From Hymenobacter nivis (GTDB lineage Bacteria; Bacteroidota; Bacteroidia; Cytophagales; Hymenobacteraceae): a stretch of 64,000 bases of DNA. The stretch is taken from contig NZ_RCYZ01000001.1 in NCBI RefSeq assembly GCF_006439025.1, forward strand, positions 248,001 to 312,000, written 5' to 3'. This document shows positions 7,932-62,197 of the stretch, piece after piece; positions within the stretch are counted from its first letter, which is position 1; every line of letters begins with the position of its first letter. Made by a program: the position numbers and the translations under genes. The notes beneath the pieces were generated by a model. That model did not search any database. It saw only the letters and a program-made list of their open reading frames with translations, and had not been told where the DNA came from.

Positions 7932-7952
7932 TTCATTTCTCGCTACTACTTT

Positions 7953-9521: not shown

Positions 9522-9570
9522 GCTGCTTAGGGGTCCCTGGGGCCCCACGGCGCTTGCTTACTGACAATGC

Positions 9571-9602
9571 AAAGGAGGATAAGCACGCGCTTATCCTCCT
9601 TT
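9571..9602 (+). terminator. Rho-independent terminator after susD
   Basis: A perfect 14-bp inverted repeat, AAAGGAGGATAAGC and its complement, is separated by a 4-base loop and followed by CTTTTA. It lies 50 bases after the susD stop and before the GH65 gene, so it separates the SusCD unit from the hydrolases. Confidence 0.85.
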
Positions 9603-9637
9603 CTTTTAGGCCATTTTTCACCGCTTATCCCTTTCGG

Positions 9638-41154: not shown

Positions 41155-41324
41155 AAGAAGCCGGCAAAGCACCGCCCAACCCGGGCGGCGGGCCCGGCGC
41201 AAGGCCCGGGCTGGGCGCAAAGGTCGGCCGCGGGCGGCTACGCCAATGTTACGTTTGCGTGGCCTACGCCGGGGCCCCGGCGTGGGCCACGGGCCGCGCC
41301 TTGGGGGACCGGCGCAGGCTGCAT

Positions 41325-44728: not shown

Positions 44729-46645
44729 ATGGAAGTATTGAATTACTCGGAAACCACGTTTGAGAAGCTGCCGGTCACCGTTTTTGAAACGCCGCAGGAA
44801 GGCGCCATCTACGTGGCCCACGAGATTGCCGCACTGATCCGGGCCAAGCAGGCCCGCGGCGAGCAGGCCGTGCTGGGCCTGGCCACCGGCTCGTCGCCCA
44901 TCGGCGTGTACAAGGAGCTGGTCCGGCTGCACCGCGAGGAAGGCCTCAGCTTCCAGAACGTGGTCACCTTCAACCTCGACGAGTACTACCCCATGCAGCC
45001 CGACGAGCTGCAGAGCTACGTTTATTTCATGCACGAGCAGCTGTTCGACCACGTCGACATCCGGCCCGAAAACGTGCACATCCCCGACGGCACGCTGCCC
45101 ATCGAGCAGGTAAAGGCTTACTGCCAGGCCTACGACAAGCTCATTGAGGACTGCGGCGGCCTCGACTTGCAGCTGCTCGGCATCGGGCGCACCGGGCACA
45201 TCGGCTTCAACGAGCCGGGCTCGGCCAGCACCTCGGCCACGCGCCTGGTTAAGCTGGACCCCTTGACGATTACCGACGCGGCCAAGGACTTCATCAAGGA
45301 GGAATACGTGCCGCTGCGGGCCCTCACCATGGGCGTGGGCACCATCACCAAGGCCCGCCAGATCATCCTGCTGGCCTGGGGCGAAGGGAAGGCCAAAATC
45401 CTCCAGGAAACGGTGGAAGGCAAGATTTCGGACGCCGTGCCGGCTTCCTTCTTGCAGCAGCACCCCCACACCCGCGTGGTGGTGGACCAGTGGGCCGCCC
45501 TGGAGCTGACGCGCATCAAAACGCCCTGGCTGGTGGGCATGTGCGCCTGGGACGACGCCCTCATCCGCCGGGCCGTTATCTGGCTGAGCCTCAAGATGGA
45601 AAAGCCCATCCTCAAGCTCACCGACGAAGACTACAAAGACGGCAGCCTGAGCGACCTGCTGGTGGAATCGGGCAGCGCTTACAGCCTCAACATCCGGGTG
45701 TTCAACGGCATTCAGCACACCATCACGGGCTGGCCGGGCGGCAAGCCCAACTCGAACGACGACAAGCGCCCCGAGCGCGCCCTGCCGGCCCACAAGCGGG
45801 TGCTCATCTTCTCGCCCCACCCCGACGACGACGTGATTTCGATGGGCGGCACGCTGCTGCGCCTCGTCGACCAGGGCCACGACGTGCACGTGGCCTACCA
45901 GACCAGCGGCAACATCGCCGTGTTCGACGACGACGCGCGCCGCTTCGCCGACTTCGCCCTGGACTTTGCGCAGAAGTCGGGCGTGGGCGCCAACAAGATG
46001 CAGAAAGAGCACGCCGAAGTGGTGGAGTTCCTCGGCCACAAGAAGCTCGGCGAGGAAGACAGCCCGCTGGTGCAGGACATCAAGGCCCTGATTCGGAAGG
46101 GCGAGGCCGCCGCGGCCTGCCGCTTCTGCGGCGTGAAGGACGAGAACGTGCACTTCATGAACATGCCGTTTTACGAAACCGGGCAGGTGAAGAAGAAGCC
46201 CCTGGGCGAGGCCGACATCCAGGCCGTGGTGGACATTTTACAGGAAATCCGGCCCCACCAGATCTTCGCCGCCGGCGACCTGCGCGACCCGCACGGCACG
46301 CACAAGGTGTGCCTCGACGCCATTTTTGCCGCCCTGGCGCGCCTCAAGGGCACGGAGGCCTGGCTCGACGACTGCTACCTGTGGCTCTACCGCGGGGCCT
46401 GGCAGGAGTGGGACGTGCAGGACATTGAGATGGCCGTGCCCATCAGCCCCGAGGAGCTGATGCGCAAGCGCCAGGCCATTTTCAAGCACCAGTCGCAGAA
46501 GGACAGCGCCGTGTTCCCCGGCAACGACAAGCGCGAGTTCTGGCAGCGCTCGGAAGACCGCAACCGCGCCACCGCCGAGCGCTACGACCAGCTCGGCCTG
46601 GCCGAGTACGAGGCCATGGAAGCGTTCGTTCGCTACAGGTTTTAG
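44729..46645 (+). CDS. nagB: Glucosamine-6-phosphate deaminase fused to PIG-L/LmbE deacetylase domain
   Basis: 638 residues. Residues about 1-260 are NagB: GLATGSSPIGVYKELVRLH, TFNLDEYYPM, GIGRTGHIGFNEPGSAS and GVGTITKARQIILLAWGEGKA. From about 355 a PIG-L/LmbE domain has SPHPDDDVISMGGTLLRL (His364, metal-binding HPDD) and DLRDPHGTHKVCLDAI. The linker carries FNGIQHTITGWPGGKPNSND. NagB converts glucosamine-6-P to fructose-6-P and ammonia; a PIG-L domain typically removes acetyl groups, and may deacetylate GlcNAc-6-P in place of a separate NagA, though its activity is not proven. This two-domain form is common in Bacteroidota. Confidence 0.93.
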   Translation: MEVLNYSETTFEKLPVTVFETPQEGAIYVAHEIAALIRAKQARGEQAVLGLATGSSPIGVYKELVRLHREEGLSFQNVVTFNLDEYYPMQPDELQSYVYFMHEQLFDHVDIRPENVHIPDGTLPIEQVKAYCQAYDKLIEDCGGLDLQLLGIGRTGHIGFNEPGSASTSATRLVKLDPLTITDAAKDFIKEEYVPLRALTMGVGTITKARQIILLAWGEGKAKILQETVEGKISDAVPASFLQQHPHTRVVVDQWAALELTRIKTPWLVGMCAWDDALIRRAVIWLSLKMEKPILKLTDEDYKDGSLSDLLVESGSAYSLNIRVFNGIQHTITGWPGGKPNSNDDKRPERALPAHKRVLIFSPHPDDDVISMGGTLLRLVDQGHDVHVAYQTSGNIAVFDDDARRFADFALDFAQKSGVGANKMQKEHAEVVEFLGHKKLGEEDSPLVQDIKALIRKGEAAAACRFCGVKDENVHFMNMPFYETGQVKKKPLGEADIQAVVDILQEIRPHQIFAAGDLRDPHGTHKVCLDAIFAALARLKGTEAWLDDCYLWLYRGAWQEWDVQDIEMAVPISPEELMRKRQAIFKHQSQKDSAVFPGNDKREFWQRSEDRNRATAERYDQLGLAEYEAMEAFVRYRF

Positions 46646-46723
46646 GGCCCCGGGGCTACTTTTGGGGTCCCGGCCGCCTGCGTGGCGGTTCGGGGCCCCT
46701 CCTTTCCTCTTCTCCATCATTGC

Positions 46724-48001
46724 ATGAAAGACAGCAAAGCCACCGTCGTTCCACCCCTGGTCATCATCGGGGCCCTGTTTTTCATCTTCGGGTTCATCAC
46801 CTGGCTCAACGGCACGCTCATACCGTTCCTGAAAATTGCCTGCGAACTCACCTACGCGCAGGCGTTGCTCGTCACGTTTGCCTTCTACATCGCCTACGTG
46901 TTTCTGGCGCTGCCCTCCTCGTTTATTCTCCAGAAAACAGGTTTTAAGAACGGCATGGCGCTGGGGCTGGTGGTGATGGCGGGCGGGGCCCTGGTGTTTG
47001 TGCCGGCGGCGCAGGCCCGCTCCTACCCGTTGTTTCTGGTGGGCCTCTTCATTCAGGGGGCCGGGCTGGCGCTGCTCCAAACGGCCTCCAACCCCTACGC
47101 CACCATCCTGGGGCCCCTGGAGAGCGCCGCCAAGCGCATCAGCATCCTGGGCATCTGCAACAAAGTGGCCGGGGCCCTCAGCCCCATCGTCATCGGGGCG
47201 GTGGTGCTGAAGGGGGCCGAAGAGCTGGAAAAGCAGCTGGCGGGCCCCATCTCGCCGGCGGCGAAAGAAGCCCTGCTGCAACAGCTGGCCGGGCGCGTCA
47301 TCACCCCCTACCTCGTCATGGCGGCGGCGCTGGTGGTGCTGGCCGTGCTCATCCGGGCGTCGGGGCTGCCAGAGGTGCAGGCCGGTGCCGCCGGCCCGGC
47401 GGCCGCAGCCCCCGAGCCAACGGGCAGCATCTGGCAGCACCCGCACCTGCTGCTGGGGGCCCTGGCCATGTTTCTCTACGTGGGGGCCGAGGTCATTGCC
47501 GGCGACACCATCATCCAATACGGTCGGTCGCAGGGCATTAGCCTCGACGTGGCCCGCAATTTCACGTCCTTCACCCTGGCGGCCATGCTGGTGGGCTACG
47601 TCGTGGGCATCGTGGCCATACCGCGCTACGTGACGCAGCAAACGGCCCTGCGCCTCTGCACGTTCGTGGGCCTGGCCTTCACGGCCGGCATCGTGCTCAC
47701 GCACGGCCTGGCGTCGGTGGCGTGCGTGGCGCTGCTGGGCCTGGCCAACGCGCTGATGTGGCCGGCCATTTTCCCGCTCAGCATCAAGGGCTTGGGCAAC
47801 CTGACGGAGCGCGGCTCGGCCCTGGTGGTCATGGGCATCGGGGGCGGGGCGGTGCTGCCTTACCTGTACGGCAAGCTGACGGAGGTGCTGGGCCTGCAAA
47901 ATGCCTACCTGCTGCTGGTTCCGTGCTACCTCTACATTCTGTTCTTTGCCCTCAAAGGCCACACCTACCGGCCCAAGCCCGTGCTGGCCGCGGCTGCGTA
48001 G
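46724..48001 (+). CDS. MFS sugar transporter, NagP/GlcP-type (FucP relative)
   Basis: 425 residues from ATG 46724 with 12 predicted helices. FFIFGFITWLNGTLIPFLKIACEL and GAGLALLQTASNPYATILGP are marks of the FucP/GluP/NagP group; the TASNPY motif replaces the TAANPY of FucP. It follows nagB by 78 bases on the same strand. Uptake of GlcNAc (NagP) is most likely, with glucose/galactose as an alternative. With the GH20 enzyme and NagB-LmbE it would complete amino-sugar use. Confidence 0.87.
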   Translation: MKDSKATVVPPLVIIGALFFIFGFITWLNGTLIPFLKIACELTYAQALLVTFAFYIAYVFLALPSSFILQKTGFKNGMALGLVVMAGGALVFVPAAQARSYPLFLVGLFIQGAGLALLQTASNPYATILGPLESAAKRISILGICNKVAGALSPIVIGAVVLKGAEELEKQLAGPISPAAKEALLQQLAGRVITPYLVMAAALVVLAVLIRASGLPEVQAGAAGPAAAAPEPTGSIWQHPHLLLGALAMFLYVGAEVIAGDTIIQYGRSQGISLDVARNFTSFTLAAMLVGYVVGIVAIPRYVTQQTALRLCTFVGLAFTAGIVLTHGLASVACVALLGLANALMWPAIFPLSIKGLGNLTERGSALVVMGIGGGAVLPYLYGKLTEVLGLQNAYLLLVPCYLYILFFALKGHTYRPKPVLAAAA

Positions 48002-48161
48002 CGCCGCCCTGGGGCCCTCCGCGGGCATTTCGCCACTGCGGCAGGGCCCCCAGGTGCGCCGCCCGGACCCCCGAAAAACCTGCTTCCCATTGCTCCTGCA
48101 AAACTAGGCCCGGGGCATTAGCGAGCTGATTAACAGAAATTGATTAATTTGTTAACTAAAC

Positions 48162-48291: not shown

Positions 48292-51200
48292 ATGCAAAAA
48301 ACCTTACACCTAATAGTTCTACTCTTGCTGCTTTGCCGAGGGTATAGCTACGCCCAGGCAACCAAGATTGCGGGCAGAGTCGTCGGCTCAGACAACGCGC
48401 CCCTCATCGGGGTGAGCATCCAGGTGAGCGGCACCTCGCAGGGCACCACCACCGACGTGACCGGCAACTACGCCATCATGGCCCCGGGCAACGGCTCGCT
48501 GGTGTTCTCCTACGTGGGCTACCTGCCGCAGACGGTGGCCATCGGCGACCGCTCGACCATTAACGTGGTGCTGGCCAACGACAACAAGGAGCTCGGCGAA
48601 GTCGTGGTGACGGCGCTGGGCATCAAGAAGGACGAGCGCAAGCTTGGCTATGCCGTGACCAAAGTGGAAGGCGGCCCGCTCGCGATAGCCCGCGAAACCA
48701 ACGTGGCCAACTCGCTCGAAGGCCGAGTGGCCGGCCTGAACGTGGGCGGCACCAGTGGGGGCCCCGGCTCATCGGCGCGCCTCAACATCCGGGGCGTGAC
48801 GTCGTTTTCGGGCACTTCCTCGCCGCTGATCGTCATCAACGGCGTGCCCATGGACAACACCGTGCGGGGCAGCGCCGGCGAGTGGGGCGGCGCCGACCTA
48901 GGCGACGGCATCAGCAACATCAACCCCGACGACATTGAAAACGTGACGGTGCTGAAGGGCTCGACCGCTTCGGCCCTGTACGGGGCCCGGGCGGCCAACG
49001 GCGTGATTCAGATTACGACCAAGACCGGCTCGCGCACCAAAACCACGATTGAGTACAACACCAACCTGCAGTTTGACCGGGCGGTGAACAACACGGACTT
49101 CCAGGACGTGTACGGTCAGGGCAGCCAGGGCCTGCGGCCCACCGACAAGGCCTCGGCCATTGTATCGGGCAACACGGCCTGGGGCCAGCGGCTGGACGGC
49201 GCGCCGACCGTCGGCATCGACGGCCAGCAATACGCCTACTCGGCAGTGAAGGGCAACATCAACAATTTCTACCGCGTGGGGCCCTCCTTCACCAACACGG
49301 TGGCAATTTCGGGCGGTGGCGACAAGGGCACTTACCGCCTGTCGGTGTCGAACCTGGACAACAAGTCCATCCTGCGCAACAGCGGCCTGACGCGCCGCAC
49401 CGTGAACTTCAACACGGCCTACGACCTGACCAAGAAGCTGAGCTTCAACCTGTCGGCCAGCTACATCGACCAGAACGACCAGAACCGGCCCCAGCTCAGC
49501 GACTCGCCCCTGAACGCCAACAACATCCTGTTCCTGGCCCCCAACATCAACCAGTCTACCCTGGCCCCCGGCTTCGACCCCAACAACAACGGCCTGGAAA
49601 CGGCTTGGAACGTGGACAGCTACGCCACCAACCCGTGGTTTGTGGTGAACCAGTTCGTAAACAACGTGTCGCGCAAGCGCCTCATTAGCTCGCTTTCGGC
49701 CCGGTACGCCTTCACCGACTACCTGTTTTTGCAAGGCCGCATCGGCTACGACTACTCCAGCGACCGCCGCTTTGGCGTGACGCCCTACGGCACGCTGTAC
49801 TCGACCGCCGGCGAGGGGGCCCTCGACAACCTGACCCTGGGCAGCCGCCTCGAGATGAACTCCGACGCCTTGCTCTCGTTCAACAAGAGCCTCAACCAAG
49901 ACTTCTCCATCAGCGCCAGCGTGGGGGCCAACTACCGCCGCAACAAGTTTGAGAGCAGCCGCTTGTCCGGCGGGCAGTTCATTGTGCCCTACCTGTACAC
50001 GCCATCCAACGTGCGCATCGCCAACCGCCCCGAGTACCAGTTCTCGGAGCTGGTAACGCCCTCGCTCTACTACACCGCCGACTTCACCTACCGCTTCCTG
50101 ACCCTGAGCACGACCGGCCGCTACGACCGCTTCTCGTCGCTGCCCAACGGCAACCGCAGCATCTTCACGCCGTCGGTGGCGGGCAGCTTCATCTTCTCCG
50201 ACCTGCTCGACTCGCCGGCCCTGAGCTACGGCAAGCTGCGCGCCTCCTACGCCAAGACCAGCGGCGAGGCCGCCAACCCGTACCTGACGCAACAGTACTA
50301 CAACATCGGTAACCCCATCAACGGCGTGCCGCGTGCTAACACCAGCTCGACGCTGCCCAACGCCAACCTGCGCCCCTACAACCTGCGCGAATTTGAAATC
50401 GGCACAGAGCTGAAGTTCCTCAATAACCGCATTGGGGTGGACCTGGCGTACTTCAACCGCAAAACCACCGGTGAGATTGTGAACGCCTCCCTCTCGGTAG
50501 CCACGGGCTACGAGGGCACCACCGTGAACCTGGGCTCGACCCTGAACCGCGGCGTAGAGCTGGCCCTGACGCTGGTGCCCATCAAGCGCGGCGCCTTCAC
50601 CTGGACCTCGTCGTTCAACTTCACCAAGCTGCACAACGAAGTGCTCGACATCGACGGCGGCGCCAACAACCCGCTGCAAACCGGCACCTACCGCCCCATG
50701 AACGCCAACATCGGCATCGTGAAGGGCCTCCCCATCTCGCAGGTGCGGGCATACGACTACAAGCGCGACGCCAGCGGCAACGTGATTGTGGGCGCTGATG
50801 GCATTCCGCTGCGCGGCGACCTGAAGCCCATGGGCTCGGGCATTGCCAACCTGTACGGCGGCTTCAACAACGATTTCACCTTCAAGAACTTCAACCTGTC
50901 GTTCCTGATTGACTACAAGTTCAACAACAAGATCCTCTCGGCCACCGAGTACTACTCGTACACCCGCGGCCTGAACCAGGCCACGCTGACCGGCCGCGAA
51001 ACCGGCGTAGTAGCTGCCGGCGTGACGGAAAGCGGCGCGGTGAACACGGTGGTGGTGCCCGCCTACACCTACTACCCCACCCTGGCCAGCAACGTGTCGG
51101 CCCTGTCGGTGCTCGACGGTAGCTTCATCAAGTTCCGCCAGCTGTCGTTCGGCTACAACTTCAACCAGAGCCTGCTGGCGCGCACGCCGTTCCAAAATAT

Positions 51201-51366
51201 TACCCTGTCGCTGGTGGGCCGCAACCTGTTCACCATCCTCAAGCACACCGACAACATCGACCCCGAGAACACCATCTCGCCGTTGGTTGCCTATGCAGGG
51301 GTAGAAGGCGGCTCGCTGCCCTTCGCCCGCACGTACGGCGTCACCCTCAATGTTAAATTCAAATAA
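48292..51366 (+). CDS. susC: SusC/RagA-family TonB-dependent outer-membrane transporter (second)
   Basis: About 1024 residues from ATG 48292; the upstream GTG/TTG-extended frame adds non-signal sequence. Signal peptide LIVLLLLLCRGYSYAQA. Carboxypeptidase-like domain: KIAGRVVGSDNAPLIGVSIQ, TDVTGNYAIMAPG, LVFSYVGYLPQTV. Plug: EVVVTALGIKKDERKLGYAV, SLEGRVAGLNVGG, LNIRGVTSFSG, LIVINGVPMDNT, VLKGSTASALYGARAANGVI. A long beta-barrel ends in LPFARTYGVTLNVKFK. The EVVVTALGI and KLGYAVTKV segments place it in a different SusC branch from the first one. It starts a run of six same-strand genes. The imported glycan is unknown. Confidence 0.95.
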   Translation: MQKTLHLIVLLLLLCRGYSYAQATKIAGRVVGSDNAPLIGVSIQVSGTSQGTTTDVTGNYAIMAPGNGSLVFSYVGYLPQTVAIGDRSTINVVLANDNKELGEVVVTALGIKKDERKLGYAVTKVEGGPLAIARETNVANSLEGRVAGLNVGGTSGGPGSSARLNIRGVTSFSGTSSPLIVINGVPMDNTVRGSAGEWGGADLGDGISNINPDDIENVTVLKGSTASALYGARAANGVIQITTKTGSRTKTTIEYNTNLQFDRAVNNTDFQDVYGQGSQGLRPTDKASAIVSGNTAWGQRLDGAPTVGIDGQQYAYSAVKGNINNFYRVGPSFTNTVAISGGGDKGTYRLSVSNLDNKSILRNSGLTRRTVNFNTAYDLTKKLSFNLSASYIDQNDQNRPQLSDSPLNANNILFLAPNINQSTLAPGFDPNNNGLETAWNVDSYATNPWFVVNQFVNNVSRKRLISSLSARYAFTDYLFLQGRIGYDYSSDRRFGVTPYGTLYSTAGEGALDNLTLGSRLEMNSDALLSFNKSLNQDFSISASVGANYRRNKFESSRLSGGQFIVPYLYTPSNVRIANRPEYQFSELVTPSLYYTADFTYRFLTLSTTGRYDRFSSLPNGNRSIFTPSVAGSFIFSDLLDSPALSYGKLRASYAKTSGEAANPYLTQQYYNIGNPINGVPRANTSSTLPNANLRPYNLREFEIGTELKFLNNRIGVDLAYFNRKTTGEIVNASLSVATGYEGTTVNLGSTLNRGVELALTLVPIKRGAFTWTSSFNFTKLHNEVLDIDGGANNPLQTGTYRPMNANIGIVKGLPISQVRAYDYKRDASGNVIVGADGIPLRGDLKPMGSGIANLYGGFNNDFTFKNFNLSFLIDYKFNNKILSATEYYSYTRGLNQATLTGRETGVVAAGVTESGAVNTVVVPAYTYYPTLASNVSALSVLDGSFIKFRQLSFGYNFNQSLLARTPFQNITLSLVGRNLFTILKHTDNIDPENTISPLVAYAGVEGGSLPFARTYGVTLNVKFK

Positions 51367-51375
51367 GCTAGCGCG

Positions 51376-52968
51376 ATGAGAAAGACTGTTATCTACGCGG
51401 CTTTGTCGGCCGTCCTGTTCAGCACTTCCTGCTCGGAAAAATACCTGGATGAGGTAAACACCAACCCCAACGCGGCCTCCGCGGCCAACCTCAACCCCAA
51501 CTACCTGCTCACCGACGGCCAGCTCACGTTTGCCAACACGGGCTACGGCGAGCTGCTATACCCAGCCCCGGCCATTCAGGCCCTGGCCAGCACGTTCAAC
51601 TACTACGGCAACGGCGATAAGTACACCAACTCGGGCGGCTTTACCGGCTACCAGGCCCTGCTTTTCGGCCAGGGCTACACGGCCCTGAGCCGCCTGCAGC
51701 AGGCCATCGACGTGGCCAACACGCAGGGCGCGACGCGCTTCACCAACTTGATTGCCATCAGCAATATCATGAAAGTCATGATATTCCAGCGCATCACCGA
51801 TACCTACGGCGACATTCCGTTTACGCAGGCAACAATGGCCACCCAGGGCATCAACACGCCCCAGTACGACAAGCAGCAGGACATCTACCCTGCGCTGCTC
51901 ACGCAGCTTGACGCGGCCATCACCAGCCTCGACGCTGCGGGCCCCAAGACGGCGGGCGACCTACTCTACGGTGGCGACGTGGCCAAGTGGAAAAAGCTGG
52001 GCTACTCGCTGATGGTGCGCGTGGCCATGCGCATGACCAAGGCCAACGCTGCCCTGGCCAAAACCTACACCGAGAAGGCCGCGGCGGCTGGCACCATGAC
52101 CAGCTACACCGACAATGCCCTGATAAACGGCGACATTGCTTACGGCGACACCCAGAACGCTACGACCAACGCCCTACTCACCACCGACGACTTTCGGGAA
52201 GTGAAGTGGAGCAAAACCCTGATTGACTACCTGCGTACCACCAGCGACCCGCGCCTGAGCGCCGTGGCCGAGATTCCGCAGGCCGGCGCTGCCAACAACG
52301 CCAACCAGTCGCTGGCCGGTGACAACACGGCTTCGCTGCAGCGCGGCCTGCCCAACGGCTACGACCTGACGGGCGGCGCCTTCGACATCCGCAAGCGCAG
52401 CGACTACCCCGGCGGCACCGGCTCGGCCAGCGACCTGGCCCTGGTCGGCGGTTACTCGCGGCCCCGCGTGGCCGTGTACATCCAGCGCAGCGCCCCCAAC
52501 TTTTTGCTGACCTACGGCGAAACTGAGCTGCTGCTGGCCGAGGCCGCCAGCCGCGGCTGGAGCGTGGGCGCCACGGCCGCCACGCACTATGCCAACGGCG
52601 TGCGCGGCGCCATGCTGTCGCTCTCGCAGTTCGGCTCGGCCGCCGCTATCGACGCCTCCACCATTGACGCCTACCTGCTGGCTCGCCCCCTGAGCGCTGC
52701 CACTCCGCTCAAGCAAATCAACGAGCAGTACTGGCTGGAGGCCTCCACGACCTTCAACTTCATTGAGGCCTGGAACAACTGGCGCCGCTCGGGCTACCCC
52801 GAGCTGACGCCGGTGAACTACCCCGGCAACGTGACCAACGGCACCATTCCGCGCCGCCTCATCTACCCGGTGACGGAGGTATCGAATAACCCCGCCGGCT
52901 ACGCCATGGGCGTGGCCAGCCTCACCGGCGGCGACCTGCTGACCTCCCGCGTGTGGTGGGATAAGTAG
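51376..52968 (+). CDS. susD: SusD-like outer-membrane lipoprotein (SusD-like_2 type)
   Basis: 530 residues, starting 10 bases after susC. Signal peptide MRKTVIYAALSAVLFSTSC with lipobox Cys19 followed by SEKYLDEVNTNPNAAS, typical of the SusD-like_2 branch. Further marks are FQRITDTYGDIPFTQA, YDKQQDIYPALLTQLDAAI, KWKKLGYSLMVRVAMRM, LTYGETELLLAEAASRGW and the C-terminal PRRLIYPVTEVSNN. It binds the glycan at the cell surface for SusC. A terminator at 52988-53035 follows, so the next genes may have their own promoter. Confidence 0.93.
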   Translation: MRKTVIYAALSAVLFSTSCSEKYLDEVNTNPNAASAANLNPNYLLTDGQLTFANTGYGELLYPAPAIQALASTFNYYGNGDKYTNSGGFTGYQALLFGQGYTALSRLQQAIDVANTQGATRFTNLIAISNIMKVMIFQRITDTYGDIPFTQATMATQGINTPQYDKQQDIYPALLTQLDAAITSLDAAGPKTAGDLLYGGDVAKWKKLGYSLMVRVAMRMTKANAALAKTYTEKAAAAGTMTSYTDNALINGDIAYGDTQNATTNALLTTDDFREVKWSKTLIDYLRTTSDPRLSAVAEIPQAGAANNANQSLAGDNTASLQRGLPNGYDLTGGAFDIRKRSDYPGGTGSASDLALVGGYSRPRVAVYIQRSAPNFLLTYGETELLLAEAASRGWSVGATAATHYANGVRGAMLSLSQFGSAAAIDASTIDAYLLARPLSAATPLKQINEQYWLEASTTFNFIEAWNNWRRSGYPELTPVNYPGNVTNGTIPRRLIYPVTEVSNNPAGYAMGVASLTGGDLLTSRVWWDK

Positions 52969-52987
52969 TAGTTAGCTAATTGATTAC

Positions 52988-53035
52988 GAGAGGCTTTACT
53001 CCGGGCAAGCCTGGGGTAAAGCCTCTCTTTTTTTA
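52988..53035 (+). terminator. Rho-independent terminator after second susD
   Basis: GAGAGGCTTTAC (52988-52999) pairs with GTAAAGCCTCTC (53016-53027) around a partly paired loop, and is followed by a run of T up to 53034. It starts 20 bases after the susD stop. Confidence 0.85.
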
Positions 53036-53055
53036 CTTATTCAGGAATTGACGCT

Positions 53056-54204
53056 TTGTCGTATTTGAAAAACCTGCTCGCCCCTTTTCGCCGGCCCCCG
53101 GCCCCGCGCCGGCCTTTGGGCCGCTGGTGGGGGGTAGGGCTGGGGCTGGCCGCCGCCCTGCCGCTGCACGCCCAAACCACGCCCTTCGCCGGCCTGGAGG
53201 AACTCTTTACGCCGCCCAAGGGCTACGTGGTGCAGCACACAAGCCAGCCGCTGACGATAGACGGTAACCTGCGCGAAAGCGACTGGCTAAAAGCCCCCTG
53301 GACCACCGACTTCGTCGATATAGAAGGCGCCAAAAAGCCCCTACCCCCCTTCCAGACGCGGGTGAAGATGCTCTGGAACGACTCGACGCTCTTCATTGCC
53401 GCCACCTTGCAGGAGCCCCAGATTTGGGCTTACCAGACGCACCACGACGACATTATTTACAAAGACAACGACTTTGAGGTGTTTATCGACCCCGACAACA
53501 ATGCGCACCAATATTTTGAAGTGGAAGTAAACGCCCTGAACAAGATTTTTGACTTGTACCTGCCCAAGCCCTACCGCGACAAGGGCGACGCGCTTATCAG
53601 CTGGGACGCGGCTGGCCTGCGCTCGGGCGTGGCCCTCAGCGGCACCCTCAATCAGCCGCGGGACATGGACAAAAGCTGGACCGTGGAAATAGCCATTCCG
53701 TTGCGGGCCCTGCGCATGGGCTTTCCGTGGCAGCCGCCGGCCGAGGGCGCGCTGTGGCGCATCAACTTCTCGCGCGTGGAATGGGACACTAAAGCGGTGG
53801 GTGCCAAAAACGTGAAGCTGCAGGACGCCAGCGGCAAGGACCGGCCCGAGCACAACTGGGTGTGGTCGCCGCAAGGCGTCGTCAACATGCACTACCCCGA
53901 GCGCTGGGGCTACTTGCAGTTTACGCGCCGGGCGGGTACCACCTGGCAGCTGCCCGCGGCCGAAGTGCGCAAGCAGTACCTGTGGCTAGTGTACTACCGC
54001 CAGCAGCGGTTCAAGGAGAAAAACGGCCGCTACGCCGCCACCCTGGCCGAGCTTGGTATCGCCCCGCAGGTGGAAGTTGATAACCAAGCGAACCAGCTGG
54101 AGCTGGCCGCCACGCCCTACCAGTTCACGGCCACCATCACGGCGGCCGGTGGGGCCCCCATCCGCCTCAACGACGAAGGACTCATCGAAACCCTCAAGCC
54201 CTAG
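53056..54204 (+). CDS. Exported CBM9-like carbohydrate-binding protein
   Basis: 382 residues from TTG 53056. A hydrophobic stretch (GVGLGLAAALPLHAQ) is the signal. Residues about 60-290 are a CBM9-like (DUF1083-type) beta-sandwich: QPLTIDGNLRESDWLKAPWT, TRVKMLWNDSTLFIAATLQE, NDFEVFIDPDNNAHQYFEVE and WTVEIAIPLRAL. Such domains stand alone or on enzymes and bind sugar ends. No catalytic domain is attached. It follows the SusD terminator and precedes the Tat-exported GH10-like protein by 7 bases, so the two are likely co-transcribed. Confidence 0.85.
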   Translation: MSYLKNLLAPFRRPPAPRRPLGRWWGVGLGLAAALPLHAQTTPFAGLEELFTPPKGYVVQHTSQPLTIDGNLRESDWLKAPWTTDFVDIEGAKKPLPPFQTRVKMLWNDSTLFIAATLQEPQIWAYQTHHDDIIYKDNDFEVFIDPDNNAHQYFEVEVNALNKIFDLYLPKPYRDKGDALISWDAAGLRSGVALSGTLNQPRDMDKSWTVEIAIPLRALRMGFPWQPPAEGALWRINFSRVEWDTKAVGAKNVKLQDASGKDRPEHNWVWSPQGVVNMHYPERWGYLQFTRRAGTTWQLPAAEVRKQYLWLVYYRQQRFKEKNGRYAATLAELGIAPQVEVDNQANQLELAATPYQFTATITAAGGAPIRLNDEGLIETLKP

Positions 54205-54211
54205 CCCCGCC

Positions 54212-55306
54212 ATGACGAACCGCCGCAAATTTGTTCAGAACAGCCTGCTGGTGGGCCTGGCCGCGCCGCTGCTGCCCGCCGTGGCCCAGGCCGCCCTGCC
54301 CGCCCCTACCCCCCCCAAGGCCGGCTGGAAGCACTGGGTCTGGACCAACCCCGACCAGAAAGACACCGCCGACCAGCTGGCCGAGCGCTACCGCAGCTAC
54401 TACGAGGCGGGCGTGCGGGGCATCTTTTTCGAGGCCGACAGCGAGCGGCACTTCCGCGCCGCCAAGGCCCAGAAGCTGGAGGCCCACCGCTGGATTTGGA
54501 CCATGAACAGGGGCGAGAAAACGCTGCTGGCCGCCCACCCCGAGTGGTACGCCGTGAGCCGCAAGGGCGACTCCTGCGCCACCCACCCGCCCTACGTGGA
54601 CTACTACCGCTGGCTGTGCCCCTCGCGCGAGGAGGTGAAGCAGTACCTGGAGCAGGACTACGCCGCCGCCCTCAAAAAGGACTACATCGACGGCATTCAC
54701 CTCGACTACGTGCGGTTTTGCGACGTCATTTTGCCCGTCAACCTGTGGGATAAATACGGCATTGTGCAAACCAGCGAGCTGCCCGAATACGACTTTTGCT
54801 ACTGCCCGGTGTGCAAGGCGGCCTACAAGGCCGAGTGCGGCGAGGACATTGATAAAGTGCAGTACCCCGAAGCCAGCCCTTCGTGGCGCGCCTTCCGCTA
54901 CCAGCGCGTGAACGAGGTGGTGCGCCGCCTCACGGCCGTGGCCAAGCAGTACCGCAAGCCCATCACGGCCGCCGTATTTCCGACCCCCGACATTGCCCAC
55001 CGCAACGTGAAGCAGGACTGGGTGAACTGGAACATCAGCGCCGTGTGCCCCATGATTTACCACGGCTTCTACAAGGAAAACGTGTCCTGGATTGGCCAGG
55101 CGGTGAAGGAAGGCGTGGGGGCCCTAAACGGCAAGTTCCCGCTCTACGCGGGGCTGTACCTGTCCGATTTTAAGAGCGATGCCGAGCTGACGCAGGGCAT
55201 CGAGCTGGCCCTGCGCCACGGCGCGGCGGGCGTTTCGCTCTTCGGCAACGTGTCGGCGGCGGCGCTGGGGGCCCTAAAGGCGGCCTCGGCTACGGTGCGC
55301 GGCTAG
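54212..55306 (+). CDS. Tat-exported GH10-like putative glycoside hydrolase
   Basis: 364 residues from ATG 54212. MTNRRKFVQNSLLVGLAAPL is a clear Tat signal. The rest resembles the family-10-like (GHL10) putative hydrolases: WKHWVWTNPDQKD, EAGVRGIFFEADSERHFRAA, HRWIWTMNRG, CPSREEVKQYLEQDYAAAL, DYIDGIHLDYVRFCD and VCPMIYHGFY. The DYVRF segment with Asp/Arg is the usual signature. FCYCPVCKAAYKAEC shows three or four cysteines in a zinc-knuckle-like spacing, as often seen in this family. The reaction is unknown. It follows the CBM9-like gene by 7 bases. Confidence 0.82.
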   Translation: MTNRRKFVQNSLLVGLAAPLLPAVAQAALPAPTPPKAGWKHWVWTNPDQKDTADQLAERYRSYYEAGVRGIFFEADSERHFRAAKAQKLEAHRWIWTMNRGEKTLLAAHPEWYAVSRKGDSCATHPPYVDYYRWLCPSREEVKQYLEQDYAAALKKDYIDGIHLDYVRFCDVILPVNLWDKYGIVQTSELPEYDFCYCPVCKAAYKAECGEDIDKVQYPEASPSWRAFRYQRVNEVVRRLTAVAKQYRKPITAAVFPTPDIAHRNVKQDWVNWNISAVCPMIYHGFYKENVSWIGQAVKEGVGALNGKFPLYAGLYLSDFKSDAELTQGIELALRHGAAGVSLFGNVSAAALGALKAASATVRG

Positions 55307-55338
55307 CGGGGGGTAGGGCGAGCGTCGTACATTTTAGC

Positions 55339-58300
55339 TTGCAAAGCTTTTTGCAGCCTTTATTCATCAATTCCTTGAGCGTTTTCACCACCAAATTAGG
55401 GGCCCCGGGGGCCTGCTGGCGCGCTGGCTGCCGGCTGCTGCTCACGCTGATGGGGCTGGGCGGCGCGCTGGGCAGCCGGGCGCAGCAGCGGGAGCAGCAG
55501 CCGCTGTTCACGCTGCTCAGCGCGCAGGAAACGGGCATCGCGTTCAACAACGCCGTGAGCGAAAACGAGGCGCTCAACATTTTGTCCTACGAGTACTTCT
55601 ACAACGGCGGCGGCGTGGCGGTGGGCGACATCAACGACGACGGCCTGCCCGACCTGATGCTCACCGGCAACATGCGGCCTAACCGGCTGTACCTTAACTT
55701 GGGCGGCTGCAAATTCAAGGATATTACCGACCAGGCCAACCCGGGGCTGGGCGGGCGCAAGGACGGCTGGAAAACCGGCGTGACAATGGCCGACGTGAAC
55801 GGCGACGGCCGCCTCGACATCTACGTATGCTACTCGGGCAAGAAGGCCGACGACGTGCGCCGCAACCAGCTGTTCATCAACCAGGGCAACAACAAGTTTG
55901 AGGAGCAGGCCCACCAGTACGGCCTCGACGACCCCGGCTACAGCACGCAGGCCGCGTTTTTCGACTTCGATAACGACGGCGACCTCGACATGTTTTTGCT
56001 CAATCACAACATCAAAAAGATTGACAACATGGCGTTTGCGCGCTACCAGGGCGAGGTAGATGCGCTGGCCGGCAACAAGCTGTTCAAAAACGAGGGCGGC
56101 CATTTCACCGACGTTTCCAAGGCCGCCGGCATCGTGCAGAGCCCCCTCACGTTTGGCCTGGGCATTGCCGTGGCCGACATCAACAAGGACGGCTGGCAGG
56201 ACATTTACGTCACCAACGACTACAACGAGCCCGATTACCTGTACCTGAACAACAAAAACGGCACGTTTACCAACCAGGCGCAGCGGGTGCTGCGGCACCA
56301 TTCCCACTTTTCGATGGGCGTGGACATTGCCGACTTCAACAACGACGCGCAGCCCGATATTTTCACGCTCGACATGCTGCCGGCCGATAACCACCGCCAG
56401 AAATCGCTGCAGCTGGAGGAAAACTACGAGGTATTTGAGCTGATGCAGCAGCAGGGCCTTTACCCGCAGTACATGCGCAACATGCTGCACCTCAACAACG
56501 GCGACGGCACGTTTAGCGAAATCGGGCAGCTGGCCGGCGTGGCCAAAACCGACTGGAGCTGGTGCCCGCTCATCGCCGATTTCGACAACGACGGCTACAA
56601 GGACATTTACATCAGCAACGGCTACCTGCGCGACTACACCAACAAGGATTTTTTGCGCTACTGGGGCGATTACAAGATTAAAAAGGCGATGGCCCGCGAG
56701 CCGTTTCTGCTCATGGACCTCGTGACGGCCATGCCGGCCACGGCGGTGCCCGACTACATTTTTCGCAACGAGCACAACCTCACCTTCTCCAACAAGCAGC
56801 AGGAATGGGGCCTCAACCAGGCCAATATTTCGAACGGCGCCGTGTACGCCGACCTTGACAACGACGGCGATTTGGACCTGGTGGTGAACACGATAAACCA
56901 GCCGGCCAGCATCTACCGCAACCACAGCACCGACGCTAACCACACCAACTACCTGGCCCTCAGGCTCCGGGGCCCCGGCGCCAACACCCAGGCCGTGGGG
57001 GCCAAGGTGTACGTACACACGCCCGGCCAGGTGCAGTACCAGGAGGTGAACCCCAACCGGGGCTACCTCTCGTGCGTGTCCACGGTGCTCAACTTTGGGT
57101 TGGGCACCGCCGCGCGCGCCGATTCGGTGCGCATTGTGTGGCCCGACCAGACCACGCAGCTGCTCACCGCCGTGAAGGCCAACCAGCTGCTGCGCGTGAG
57201 CGCCAAGCCGGGGGCCCTACCCGCCGCCCCGCCGCTGGCCCGCGCCGCCAAGCCGGTGTTCCGGACCGCCGCGCCGCTGTTTGATTTCCAGCCCGAGCAG
57301 GAGTCGCTGAACGACTTTAAGCGCCAGCTGCTCATGCTGTTTATGTATTCTAAAACGGCCCCGGTAATCACTAAGGCCGATGTGAACCGCGACGGCCTGG
57401 ACGACCTGTTTGTGAGCGGCGCGCCCGGCGAGGTGGGCCGGCTGTACGTGCAGCAGCCGGGCGGCACGTTTGTGGCCGCCGCGCTGGGCCGCCCTACCCC
57501 CCGCCCCACCGGCACCGTGGCGGCGGCCACGTTCTTCGACGCCAACGGCGACGGGGCCCCCGACCTGTACCTGGCCAAGGGTGGCTACGCCCTCTACGAA
57601 GCTGGGCAGGACGAGCTGCAGGACGAGCTGTACCTCAACGACGGCCGCGGGCACCTGGCGCTGGCCCCCGCCGCCCTACCCCCCCTCAGCGCGGCCAGCA
57701 AGGGCTGCGTGCGCGCCGCCGACGTGGACCACGACGGCGACCTCGACCTGTTTGTGGGCGGGCGCGTCATTCCGGGACGCTACCCCCTGCCCCCCCCCAG
57801 CTACCTGCTGCTCAACGACGGCAAGGGCACCTTTGCGGCGGCCGAGGTGCCGTTTGCTCACGCCGGCATGGTGACCGATGCGCAGTGGGCCGACCTCAAC
57901 CACGACGGCCGCCCCGACCTGGTGCTGTGCGGCGAGATGATGCCGCTAACCGTGTGGCTCAACACCCCGCAAGGCTTTCAGGACCAGACCGCGGCCTACT
58001 TTGGCACGCCGCAGCCCGGCTTTTGGTTTAGCCTGCACGTGGCCGACGTGAACGCCGACGGCCAGCCCGACATCGTGGCCGGCAACCTGGGCCTGAACAG
58101 CCCGCTGCGCGGCACCCCCGCCGAGCCCGCCACGCTCTACTACGCTGATTTTGACAACAATGGCTCCCTCGACCCCTTCCTCAACTTCTTCGTGGATGGC
58201 AAGAGCTACCCCTTCGTGAGCCGCGACGAACTGAACGACGTCATCTACCCCATGCGCCGCCGCTTCACCTCCTACAAGGCCTACGCCGATGCTACCATGA

Positions 58301-58719
58301 CGGAGATTTTTGCCCCCGAAGACCTGACCAAAGCCAGCAAACTGGAAGCTACTGAGCTGCGCACCATGCTGTATATCAACAATAAAGGAAAATTCATAGC
58401 CACCGAGCTACCCATGGAAGCCCAGTTTTCGATGGTGACCCAGATTACCAGCGGCGACTACAACCACGACGGCCACCCCGACCTGCTGCTGCTGGGCAAC
58501 CACACCGACAACCGCCTGAAAGTAGGCAGCCTCGACGCCAGCTACGGCTGCCTGCTGCAGGGCAACGGCCAGGGCGGCTTCCGCTACGTGCCGCAGCCGT
58601 CGGCCGGCCTCAGCGTGGTGGGCGACGTGAAATCGGTGAGCGAAATTACGGTGGCCAAGCAGCCCTACCTGGTGGTGGGCGTCGGCAACGGGCCCGTGCA
58701 GTTTTACAAAGCACCATGA
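55339..58719 (+). CDS. Large FG-GAP/VCBS repeat protein with ASPIC/UnbV domain
   Basis: 1126 residues if TTG 55339 is used; the start is uncertain, since no ATG precedes the hydrophobic signal (LLLTLMGLGGALGSRAQ). Many FG-GAP/VCBS calcium-binding blades follow, each with a DxNxDGxxD core: GDINDDGLPDLML, DVNGDGRLDIYV, FDNDGDLDMFL, DINKDGWQDIYV, FDNDGYKDIYI, DLDNDGDLDLVV. An ASPIC/UnbV domain lies near 540-640 (GAKVYVHTPGQVQYQEVN, FGLGTAARADSVRIVWPD), then a second set of blades. It is exported and likely surface-bound, with an adhesive or ligand-binding role rather than a known catalytic one. It overlaps the next gene by four bases. Confidence 0.85.
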   Translation: MQSFLQPLFINSLSVFTTKLGAPGACWRAGCRLLLTLMGLGGALGSRAQQREQQPLFTLLSAQETGIAFNNAVSENEALNILSYEYFYNGGGVAVGDINDDGLPDLMLTGNMRPNRLYLNLGGCKFKDITDQANPGLGGRKDGWKTGVTMADVNGDGRLDIYVCYSGKKADDVRRNQLFINQGNNKFEEQAHQYGLDDPGYSTQAAFFDFDNDGDLDMFLLNHNIKKIDNMAFARYQGEVDALAGNKLFKNEGGHFTDVSKAAGIVQSPLTFGLGIAVADINKDGWQDIYVTNDYNEPDYLYLNNKNGTFTNQAQRVLRHHSHFSMGVDIADFNNDAQPDIFTLDMLPADNHRQKSLQLEENYEVFELMQQQGLYPQYMRNMLHLNNGDGTFSEIGQLAGVAKTDWSWCPLIADFDNDGYKDIYISNGYLRDYTNKDFLRYWGDYKIKKAMAREPFLLMDLVTAMPATAVPDYIFRNEHNLTFSNKQQEWGLNQANISNGAVYADLDNDGDLDLVVNTINQPASIYRNHSTDANHTNYLALRLRGPGANTQAVGAKVYVHTPGQVQYQEVNPNRGYLSCVSTVLNFGLGTAARADSVRIVWPDQTTQLLTAVKANQLLRVSAKPGALPAAPPLARAAKPVFRTAAPLFDFQPEQESLNDFKRQLLMLFMYSKTAPVITKADVNRDGLDDLFVSGAPGEVGRLYVQQPGGTFVAAALGRPTPRPTGTVAAATFFDANGDGAPDLYLAKGGYALYEAGQDELQDELYLNDGRGHLALAPAALPPLSAASKGCVRAADVDHDGDLDLFVGGRVIPGRYPLPPPSYLLLNDGKGTFAAAEVPFAHAGMVTDAQWADLNHDGRPDLVLCGEMMPLTVWLNTPQGFQDQTAAYFGTPQPGFWFSLHVADVNADGQPDIVAGNLGLNSPLRGTPAEPATLYYADFDNNGSLDPFLNFFVDGKSYPFVSRDELNDVIYPMRRRFTSYKAYADATMTEIFAPEDLTKASKLEATELRTMLYINNKGKFIATELPMEAQFSMVTQITSGDYNHDGHPDLLLLGNHTDNRLKVGSLDASYGCLLQGNGQGGFRYVPQPSAGLSVVGDVKSVSEITVAKQPYLVVGVGNGPVQFYKAP

Positions 58720-60062
58720 TAAAGCACGCACTACTACTGGCCGCGTTGGCCGCTACCACGTTGGTACCCGGCAGCGTAGCCGCCGGGGGGCCCCAGCCCG
58801 CCGGGGCCCTCGACCCCAGCAAGGCGCTCGACGCCATCAACATGACGATGGTGCACGACGTCATCAGCCCCCCGGCCGCGGCACGCTACTACGCCTACAG
58901 CATGCTGGGGGCCTACAGCATTGTGGCGGCCCGCAACAAGAGCCTGCCCCCGGCGCAGCACCTGGTCAAAGGCTTCGGCGCCGACCTGCGGCTGGACACC
59001 GTGCGCGCCCCCTACGACTACCAGGTTGCCGCCTACTACAGCATGCTCGAAACGGCCCGCCTGCTGCTGCCCTCGGGCGAAAACCTGGCCGACGAAGAAG
59101 CCAGCTTTTTGCAGGACATGGCCAAGCAGGGCCGCAAGCCGGCGGTGTTGCGCCAGTCGGTGCGGGTGGGGCAGCTGGCGGCGGCGGCCGTGGTTAAACT
59201 TTCTAAATCAGACCACTACGCGCAGCTGAGCACCCTCAAGCGCTACACCCCGGTGCGCGCCGAGGGCAGCTGGTACCCTACCCCCCCCGCCTACCTCGAA
59301 GCCGTGGAGCCCAACTGGAAAACCATTCGCCCGCTGGTTATCGACTCGGCCGGCGAGTTTCGGCCGGTGCGGCCCTGCGCTTTCAGCAAAGACACGGCCT
59401 CGGCCTTTTTCCATCAGGTGCTGGCCGTGTACAAGGCCGGCAAGCAGCTCACCGAAGAGCAGATTCAGGTAGCCCAGTTTTGGGATTGCAACCCGTTTGC
59501 TGTCAACACCTCGGGCCACATGGCCATTGGCTTCAAGAAAATCAGCCCCGGCGGGCACTGGATGAACATCGCCGCCCTGGTGGCCCGGCAGCAGAAAGTG
59601 GGGTTCGACAAAACTGTCTATGTGCTTCTTGCCGAAGGCATTACCCTCATGGATTCCTTCATCAGCACTTGGGATGCCAAGTACCTGACCAACCGCATTC
59701 GCCCCGAAACTTACATCAACAAGTACCTGGACGTGAAGTGGCAGCCCTTTTTGCAAACGCCGCCCTTCCCGGAGTACACCAGCGGGCACGCCGTGGTGTC
59801 CAACGCCTCGGCCGAGGTGCTCACCTACCTGCTGGGCGACCACATCGCCTACGTCGACAACACGGAAATCCCGTTTGGCAGCGGTGAGCGGTCCTTCAAG
59901 TCGTTCCGCCAGGCCGCCCAGGAGGCATCCGTGTCGCGCTTCTACGGCGGCATCCACTACATGGACAGCGTGACCGGCGGCAACGAGCAGGGACAGAAAA
60001 TAGGCCGCTACATCGTAGCTAAAATCCTGATGCCCAACAAGAAATCCTTATCTAAAAAATAG
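58716..60062 (+). CDS. Vanadium-haloperoxidase/PAP2-type protein
   Basis: 448 residues with signal peptide LLLAALAATTLVPGSVAAG. It is joined to the preceding gene by ATGA overlap (58716-58719). The three vanadate/phosphate-binding motifs are all present: K322-x6-R329-P330 in KYLTNRIRPE, S356-G357-H358 in YTSGHAVVS, and S407-R408-x3-G412-x-H414 in SRFYGGIHYMD. These define vanadium haloperoxidases and PAP2 phosphatases. A soluble exported form beside an ASPIC protein is a recurring pair in Bacteroidota. Whether it oxidises halides or cleaves phosphate cannot be told. It ends the second SusCD block. Confidence 0.88.
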   Translation: MIKHALLLAALAATTLVPGSVAAGGPQPAGALDPSKALDAINMTMVHDVISPPAAARYYAYSMLGAYSIVAARNKSLPPAQHLVKGFGADLRLDTVRAPYDYQVAAYYSMLETARLLLPSGENLADEEASFLQDMAKQGRKPAVLRQSVRVGQLAAAAVVKLSKSDHYAQLSTLKRYTPVRAEGSWYPTPPAYLEAVEPNWKTIRPLVIDSAGEFRPVRPCAFSKDTASAFFHQVLAVYKAGKQLTEEQIQVAQFWDCNPFAVNTSGHMAIGFKKISPGGHWMNIAALVARQQKVGFDKTVYVLLAEGITLMDSFISTWDAKYLTNRIRPETYINKYLDVKWQPFLQTPPFPEYTSGHAVVSNASAEVLTYLLGDHIAYVDNTEIPFGSGERSFKSFRQAAQEASVSRFYGGIHYMDSVTGGNEQGQKIGRYIVAKILMPNKKSLSKK

Positions 60063-60757: not shown

Positions 60758-62197
60758 ATGAAAAAAGTAACCCTCGCCCTCGCCTTGCTCGCCGCGGCCA
60801 GCGCCCTACCGGCCCGGGCCCAGCAGCAGGGCATCCACCAGCAGTCGACGCAGTACGAAGCGCCCACCGACCCGCTCGTGGTGCAGAAGCTGGACAAGTG
60901 GCGCGACCAGAAGTTTGGGCTCATCCTGCACTGGGGCATATACGCCATTCCGGGCATTATCGAGTCGTGGACCATCTGCTCGGAAGACTGGATTGAGCGC
61001 GACAGCACCGTGGCCTATGAGGACTATAAGAAGCACTACTGGGACTATAGCAAGCAGTTCAACCCCACTAAATTCAACCCCGAGCAGTGGGCCAGCGTGG
61101 CCAAAAAAGCCGGCATGCGCTACCTGGTGTTCACCACCAAGCACCACGACGGCTTCAACATGTTCGACACGAAGGAGTCGGATTTCAAGATCAGCAGCGG
61201 GCCGTTTAAGGACAACCCGCGGGCCGACGTGGCCAAGTACGTGTTCGACGCTTTCCGCAAGGAAGGCTTCATGATCGGGGCCTATTTCTCGAAGCCCGAC
61301 TGGCACTCGCAGGATTTCTGGTGGTCAAAATACGCCACGCCCAACCGCAACGTGAACTACGACATCAAGAAGTACCCGTGGCGCTGGAAAAAGTACCAGG
61401 ACTTCACCTACAACCAGATTGGGGAGCTGATGCACAACTACGGGAGCATGGACATTCTGTGGCTCGACGGCGGCTGGGTGCGGCCCAAGGAAACCGTGAA
61501 CGACGAGGTGCGCTCGTGGGGGGCCCCCATCCCGGAGTTCAGCCAGGACGTGAACATGCCGCGCATTGCCGCCATGGCCCGCCAGGCCCAGCCCGGCCTG
61601 CTGATGGTGGACCGCACCGTGCACGGGCCCTACGAAAACTACCAAACGCCCGAGCAAAAGGTGCCCGACCGGCCGCTGGCCAACCCCTGGGAAAGCTGCC
61701 TGACCCTGGCCAACAACTGGGGCTTCGTACCCAACGACGTGTATAAGTCGCCCACCAAAATCGTTCACACGCTGGTGGAAGTGGTGGCCAAGGGCGGCAG
61801 CCTGCTGCTGGGCGTGGGCCCCAAGCCTGACGGCACCCTCGACCAGGAGGCGGTGACACGCCTGGCGGCCATTGGCAAGTGGCTGGACGTGAACGGCGCG
61901 GCCATTTACGGCACCCGGGCCACGGCGCGCTTCCAGGACGGCACCACGTACTTCACGCAGGGCAAAACCGGCACCCGCTACGCCATTGCCTGCCTGCCCG
62001 AAAGCCAGCCCGCCCCCGCCACCGTGGCCTGGACCGGCAACGTGCCCAAAAAAGGCAGCGCCGTGAAGCTGCTCCAAACCGGCAAAACGGTGAAGTGGAC
62101 CAGCGACGGCGACAAGGTGACGGTAATGTTGCCCGCGGCATTGTCCAAAACGGCCGGGGCTTACCCGGCGCTGGCCTTTGCCTTTGCCGCGCGCTAG
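60758..62197 (+). CDS. GH29 alpha-L-fucosidase (second)
   Basis: 479 residues with Sec signal peptide VTLALALLAAASALPARAQ. The catalytic barrel has KFGLILHWGIYAIPGIIESW, AGMRYLVFTTKHHDGFNMFD, MIGAYFSKPDWHS and MDILWLDGGWVRP with nucleophile Asp237, then GLLMVDRTVHG, LVEVVAKGGSLLLGVGPKPDG and a C-terminal beta-domain from about 390. It is a typical GH29 with the WLDG motif. It cleaves alpha-L-fucose from glycans. It differs strongly from the Tat-type GH29 at 20225 (YFDD motif), so the two probably serve different linkages. A GH3 gene follows 70 bases later. Confidence 0.93.
   Translation: MKKVTLALALLAAASALPARAQQQGIHQQSTQYEAPTDPLVVQKLDKWRDQKFGLILHWGIYAIPGIIESWTICSEDWIERDSTVAYEDYKKHYWDYSKQFNPTKFNPEQWASVAKKAGMRYLVFTTKHHDGFNMFDTKESDFKISSGPFKDNPRADVAKYVFDAFRKEGFMIGAYFSKPDWHSQDFWWSKYATPNRNVNYDIKKYPWRWKKYQDFTYNQIGELMHNYGSMDILWLDGGWVRPKETVNDEVRSWGAPIPEFSQDVNMPRIAAMARQAQPGLLMVDRTVHGPYENYQTPEQKVPDRPLANPWESCLTLANNWGFVPNDVYKSPTKIVHTLVEVVAKGGSLLLGVGPKPDGTLDQEAVTRLAAIGKWLDVNGAAIYGTRATARFQDGTTYFTQGKTGTRYAIACLPESQPAPATVAWTGNVPKKGSAVKLLQTGKTVKWTSDGDKVTVMLPAALSKTAGAYPALAFAFAAR

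Follow-up and report, generated by a model that had tools for sequence, protein, structure and literature searches.

A recurrent SusC-SusD-ASPIC-haloperoxidase gene set in a predicted glycan-utilisation locus of Hymenobacter nivis

We analysed a 64,000-nucleotide stretch of the Hymenobacter nivis genome (hereafter, the window; positions 248001-312000 of contig NZ_RCYZ01000001.1 in the 5.44-Mb assembly GCF_006439025.1), in which a SusC-SusD outer-membrane uptake pair is followed on the same strand by a CBM9-like protein, a GHL10-type protein, a large propeller protein with an ASPIC domain and a vanadium-haloperoxidase-type (VHPO) enzyme. The conserved unit in this block comprises four genes, SusC-SusD-ASPIC-VHPO, and not six, and it exists as a recurrent module. 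We judged the surrounding locus to be a SusCD glycan locus of a known kind, with the ASPIC-VHPO core as an added variation, and we put at about even the chance that the block serves as the entry module, at the outer membrane, for a glycoprotein-type (N-glycan-like) sugar locus built on this core. The six open reading frames reported by the initial annotation were all verified on the + strand, with the ends it gave:

48292..51366, +: SusC-type TonB-dependent outer-membrane transporter, core gene 1, with an ATG start (TIGR04056, E 9.5e-188)
51376..52968, +: SusD-like_2 lipoprotein, core gene 2 (PF12771, E 2.9e-74)
53056..54204, +: CBM9-like secreted protein, accessory, Hymenobacteraceae only (CBM9_1 PF06452, E 8.9e-12)
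54212..55306, +: GHL10-type TIM-barrel protein, accessory, partner of the CBM9-like protein (PF02638, E 1e-7)
55339..58719, +: ASPIC protein, core gene 3 (eleven FG-GAP_3 stretches; UnbV_ASPIC PF07593, E 3.7e-23)
58716..60062, +: VHPO enzyme of the ZgVIPO group, core gene 4 (PAP2 PF01569, E 3.7e-7; PDB 4CIT, E 5.2e-110)

The gaps between these genes are, in order, 9, 87, 7 and 32 bp, and the ASPIC and VHPO frames overlap by 4 bp; with this tight spacing and larger gaps on either side (290 bp upstream and 695 bp downstream), the six genes look like a single operon. The first gap separates susC from susD, and such a tandem pair is the arrangement by which SusCD glycan-utilisation loci are recognised.

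Conservation was surveyed in the 80 loci nearest by VHPO (the named set) and in 296 evenly drawn Bacteroidota genomes, from which 75 VHPO loci were examined (the phylum set). Near relatives are not independent in any of the locus counts, the SusC counts are minimum values, as flanks end at about 10 kb, and group names for part of the surveyed genomes were assigned from their sequences. In 75 of the 80 loci of the named set, a same-strand ASPIC gene preceded VHPO at a distance of less than 250 bp, the frames commonly touching or overlapping, and SusC was found upstream in at least 60. In the phylum set, ASPIC was immediately upstream of VHPO in 43 of 75 loci, upstream at a greater distance, but on the same strand, in 13 (often with a GH65-type gene between), elsewhere in 2 and absent from the flank in 17. 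Within Hymenobacteraceae, all 25 close VHPO homologues (L204-L228) had ASPIC directly upstream, and four weak homologues had none upstream. Counted by genome, 55 of the 58 with VHPO were also ASPIC-positive (Fisher p = 4e-33), as against 32 ASPIC-positive genomes without VHPO; thus, VHPO depends on ASPIC more than ASPIC on VHPO. Together, the adjacency in the named set and the co-occurrence across genomes place the pairing far above chance, and the earlier observation that ASPIC and haloperoxidase-type genes recur together in Bacteroidota was confirmed and extended to a linkage with SusCD. Overall, a same-strand ASPIC gene was present within 5 kb upstream of 135 of 158 VHPO genes, at least 91 of these 135 pairs had a SusC or SusD gene upstream, and the distribution of ASPIC on the tree of the 158 genes required at least 14 changes. 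Our literature search, which most subscription journals lay outside, found no paper joining a haloperoxidase with ASPIC/CRTAC1 or FG-GAP proteins in a SusCD setting.

Several further arrangements of the pair were observed. A second ASPIC-VHPO cassette in the same genome (C17; L003:4218-10967) encodes a VHPO 45% and an ASPIC protein about 50% identical to those of the first, and a gene for 590 amino acids (aa) with no Pfam match lies between the two (7818-9587). Four loci (L136, L150, L153 and L154) contain, within a few genes of the main VHPO, a distantly related VHPO paralogue that is longer (about 510-550 aa) and has no ASPIC gene of its own. Open frames of 840 aa in G313 and G333 had suggested a fusion of VHPO with its partner gene, but were rejected as an artefact of GC-rich (guanine- and cytosine-rich) sequence, since in G313 a separate ASPIC gene stops just before a normal VHPO.

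The CBM9-like and GHL10 genes form a pair of their own, which in some Hymenobacter stands as an insert between SusD and ASPIC. CBM9 relatives (at least 74% identity) were found in 6 of the 80 named loci, all from Hymenobacter, and GHL10 in 3; among 60 Hymenobacteraceae genomes, 6 carried GHL10, always immediately behind CBM9. The six-gene order of the window was repeated in L006, L007 and L009, and G324 showed the order SusD-CBM9-GHL10-ASPIC as far as its short locus extends. Outside Hymenobacteraceae, both genes were absent from the cassette in every examined genus, and within the survey the pair also stood without an adjoining ASPIC or VHPO gene in G335, G346 and G348. The six-gene unit of the initial annotation was therefore not supported. 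Its description of the GHL10 protein as GH10-like was likewise not borne out: PF02638 represents a different Pfam family, the GH10 model gave no match at E <= 0.01, and only GHL10, GHL6 and DUF4015 matched. The protein carries a Tat-like RRKF signal and a CYCPVC cluster, with the CxCxxC cysteines conserved in the alignment; an AlphaFold2 prediction from an alignment of only 4 sequences gave an unusable model (predicted local distance difference test score, pLDDT, of 50).

The match of the VHPO enzyme to 4CIT spans residues 36-445, with 41% identity over 407 aligned residues. The vanadate site is complete (K322, R329, S356, G357, H358, R408 and H414), in line with the original description of a vanadate/phosphate-site enzyme. 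In the residue numbering of ZgVIPO, with vanadate-site positions at K324, R331, S358-G359-H360, R410 and H416, seven residues (W321, K324, R331, P332, H360, R410 and H416) were invariant in 160 of 160 sequences; S358 was kept in 154 of them, and D322 was mostly D or E. Fournier (2014) reportedly found ZgVIPO1 to be strictly iodide-specific. The vanadate site of the PAP2 family is also a phosphate site. With this site intact, an oxidative or a dephosphorylating role may be envisaged, and peroxidase chemistry is, by relationship, slightly more likely than not. Structure 4CIT represents an iodoperoxidase-type vanadium enzyme of Zobellia (PMC13198595; PMC12871659). L125 holds a nearly identical gene immediately following three ASPIC genes, so that the crystallised Zobellia enzyme is, judging from this gene, itself the product of an ASPIC-VHPO-type cassette. 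The window enzyme thus resembles ZgVIPO (PDB 4CIT/4USZ) in its vanadate-binding residues, its W321/S358 environment and the ASPIC gene directly upstream, but differs in its SusCD/N-glycan-type operon, its non-marine genus and its lack of a lipobox.

In L125 (9479-19857) and L196, VHPO is followed by a GyrI-like gene, and a divergent SSF transporter gene lies upstream of the three tandem ASPIC genes. Separately, a protein of about 520 aa with one CxxCH c-type haem motif followed by FG-GAP repeats is encoded beside VHPO in 13 loci, directly downstream in L029, L032-L035, L037-L040, L116 and L118 and nearby in L172 and L173; several Mucilaginibacter loci are among those with this gene 3' of VHPO. 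The protein is a candidate redox partner of the peroxidase and hints at redox chemistry.

The AlphaFold2 model of the ASPIC protein (window 55483-58716; pLDDT 88.8, predicted template-modelling score 0.89) contained two propellers. Its N-terminal half with the ASPIC domain was similar to cartilage acidic protein 1 (CRTAC1; PDB 9etn, Z 41.2, root-mean-square deviation 2.5 Å over 463 residues, 26% identity), and the sequence-profile comparison matched CRTAC1 at E 1e-30. An FG-GAP propeller joined to a UnbV_ASPIC domain is the combination that defines the CRTAC1/ASPIC family; unlike CRTAC1, the window protein has a further FG-GAP propeller, complete in itself (model residues 589-1078). The best matches of this second propeller were LGI1, the fungal aldos-2-ulose dehydratase (4a7k, Z 29.3) and other propellers. 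Aldos-2-ulose dehydratase is a propeller enzyme whose substrates are oxidised sugars, but the sequence profile did not find it, and the modelled likeness is therefore taken as a resemblance of fold only.

The genes around the cassette bear on its likely substrate. The following features flank the six genes within the window:

43083..44240, - (divergent, upstream): LacI-family regulator, possible regulator of the sugar genes (reading of the translated frame)
44729..46645, +: NagB-like/PIG-L fusion, glucosamine-6-phosphate deaminase-like (NCBIfam NF002557, 1059 bits)
46682..48001, +: NagP/GluP-type MFS sugar transporter (TIGR01272, 302 bits; NF046060 below cut-off)
48130..48155: imperfect palindrome TTAACAGAAATTGATTAATTTGTTAA, one copy in the window, candidate operator/promoter region 5' of SusC
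60758..62197, +: GH29 alpha-L-fucosidase, in what may be the next transcription unit within the locus (PF01120, E 1.1e-99)
about 62268..64000, +: GH3 glycosidase, extending past the window end

A LacI-type gene was repeatedly present near the cassette in relatives; the Bacteroidota -33/-7 promoter pattern had no match anywhere in the window. Beyond the window, genes for glycoside hydrolases (GH) of families GH2 (exo-glucosaminidase type), GH20, GH92 and GH20 continue on the same contig and strand. Same-strand carbohydrate-active enzymes beside SusCD are a mark of glycan-utilisation loci, and the joint presence of GH92, GH20 and GH29, exo-enzymes for mannose, N-acetylglucosamine and fucose, is that of N-glycan loci. 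The initial annotation had noted that no standard glycosidase was present; this holds for the six genes but not for the locus, and the suggestion that hydrolytic glycosidases had been replaced is contradicted by the ordinary exo-glycosidases that come immediately after. A glycosylasparaginase-family gene lies on the opposite strand about 24 kb beyond VHPO, and relatives carry glycosylasparaginase, CutC, GH92 and GH20 genes beside the same cassette. Across the survey, genes of the GH20/GH92/GH29/GH2/GH3/glycosylasparaginase set accompanied 36 of the 68 loci in the clade to which the window belongs, vs 7 of 89 others. Plant N-glycan loci of gut Bacteroides combine SusC/D with GH29, GH3, GH92 and GH2, and GH20 is also used on that substrate (PMC9522356). 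From the resemblance of the GH29, GH3, GH2, GH20 and GH92 set to these loci, we infer an N-glycan-type sugar set, and such a substrate is likely, at somewhat better than even confidence, for the locus in this genome. Unlike the Bacteroides loci, the H. nivis genome has no peptide:N-glycosidase (PNGase) detected with the models PF09113 and PF12222 and combines the glycosidases with the ASPIC-VHPO core and the CBM9-GHL10 insert.

The context of the pair differs by clade, and ASPIC-VHPO is thus a general accessory of different glycan loci, not bound to one glycan. As side observations, ASPIC and VHPO genes of another clade of relatives (L127, L132, L141, L144-L147, L150, L154, L160, L161, L165, L166 and L171) stand among genes for GH65, GH37 (trehalase), a GyrI-like/SRPBCC-like small-molecule-binding protein and a sugar MFS transporter, suggesting trehalose- or alpha-glucoside-type loci. 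In Niastella and Longitalea (L043, L047, L050-L052 and L056), a BNR (sialidase-like) protein precedes the cassette, and a conserved block of SSF, LacI, myo-inositol oxygenase and SusC genes follows.

The two core proteins probably share a compartment. By a simple lipobox rule, the lipoprotein status of ASPIC and the neighbouring VHPO agreed in 93 of 116 pairs (both lipoproteins in 19, both not in 74; p = 6e-7). Neither protein has a lipobox in the window's clade, and both are therefore probably periplasmic there. The gene plan recalls the levan/dextran utilisomes of Bacteroides (PMC7618045), which likewise consist of SusC, SusD, a large binding-type protein and an enzyme. In the window, however, the enzyme is of haloperoxidase type rather than a glycosidase, any complex is hypothetical, and ASPIC and VHPO lack the surface-lipoprotein character of the utilisome accessory proteins, so that the arrangement of enzyme and binding protein as surface lipoproteins on SusC is not found here.

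If the block is the entry module of an N-glycan-like locus, SusCD would, by family, import a glycan or glycopeptide. ASPIC would be a partner that VHPO cannot do without, placed with it on one side of the membrane, their adjacency and matching anchoring being observed and physical contact presumed, and would most likely bind the incoming glycoconjugate or scaffold VHPO. The VHPO enzyme, being of ZgVIPO type, would oxidise halide at the expense of hydrogen peroxide, next to the transporter; its site is intact, and the activity is known for the Zobellia relative only. This oxidation may serve to remove peroxide or to modify the substrate. The GH29, GH3, GH2, GH20 and GH92 exo-glycosidases would then dismantle the glycan, and the NagP/NagB-type genes would process the amino sugar. 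Several observations weigh against this account. PNGase models (PF09113 and PF12222) found nothing in the genome, although the PF09113 control gave no match anywhere and GH18/GH85 were not searched; the genes from GH29 onward, starting 695 bp downstream, may be separately transcribed; Flavobacteriia and Cyclobacteriaceae have the pair with GH65/GH37 and not with N-glycan genes, in a layout of GH65, GH37 and sugar MFS around ASPIC-ASPIC-VHPO; the missing lipoboxes set the core apart from known utilisomes; and sequence features do not separate peroxidase from phosphatase use of the VHPO site.

In another reading, ASPIC-VHPO would serve in peroxide/halide defence or as an antimicrobial, by detoxifying hydrogen peroxide from the host or by producing hypohalite; it would merely be co-expressed with glycan loci used on plant or algal tissue and have no share in processing the glycan. 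We regard this reading as doubtful. The occurrence of the same pair in N-glycan-type and trehalose-type loci would fit it, but the lasting SusCD linkage and the ASPIC/VHPO frame overlap across the phylum suggest a role in uptake, since defence genes need not remain within transporter operons, and other haloperoxidases are not known to need a large propeller partner. In favour of defence, Zobellia vIPO3 is induced on fresh Ascophyllum, which has been discussed as coping with algal defence (PMC9296495).

That VHPO is instead a PAP2-superfamily phosphatase, dephosphorylating glycans or glycolipids prior to uptake or in the course of it, as in fungal mannan breakdown, is rather unlikely. The PAP2 match and the double use of the site speak for it, as does the periplasmic location suggested by the missing lipobox, like that of class A acid phosphatases, and the breakdown of yeast mannan does require phosphatases (PMC10154615). 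Against this, the aligned Zobellia haloperoxidase is cited as an iodoperoxidase (PMC13198595) and its W321/S358 environment is kept, and the pair also occurs beside trehalose-type genes, where phosphate is not expected.

The recurrence of the four-gene set suggests that an as yet unexplained step, oxidative or of phosphatase type, is tied to sugar uptake. A stronger version, in which SusCD-ASPIC-VHPO would be a phylum-wide oxidative uptake module and ASPIC would present a glycoconjugate or sugar to VHPO for oxidation or halogenation during import, we regard as unlikely. The idea that all six genes serve one unusual glycan attacked without standard glycosidases draws on their tight spacing and on the order repeated in three loci and in part in G324, but is very improbable, having been largely refuted by the neighbourhood survey through the missing and the free-standing CBM9-GHL10 pairs, with standard glycosidases adjacent as well.

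Other sugar genes were noted elsewhere in the window. At 4791-11710, a second SusCD pair is followed by a GH65-family gene of the type intercalated between ASPIC and VHPO in other members of the phylum. The region 17023-41220 holds genes resembling oxidative fucose or uronate catabolism (by reading, MFS, amidohydrolase, FAH-type hydrolase, altronate/galactarate-dehydratase-type protein and SDRs), together with GH29, GH20 and GH97, and includes a phosphoesterase/lactonase-propeller fusion at 38695-41220.

The vanadium haloperoxidases of Bacteroidota are usually treated as halide enzymes that act singly in seaweed bacteria. In this survey, they proved to belong regularly to SusCD-linked operons of soil, plant-surface and freshwater genera, with the same unexplained propeller protein beside them in nearly all cases. 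Through the link with ASPIC, the crystallised Zobellia enzyme gains a partner and a likely context in physiology, and the roles of bacterial iodoperoxidases and ASPIC proteins become testable via one gene pair. An oxidative uptake module, if true, would represent a non-hydrolytic step in glycan use for Bacteroidota.

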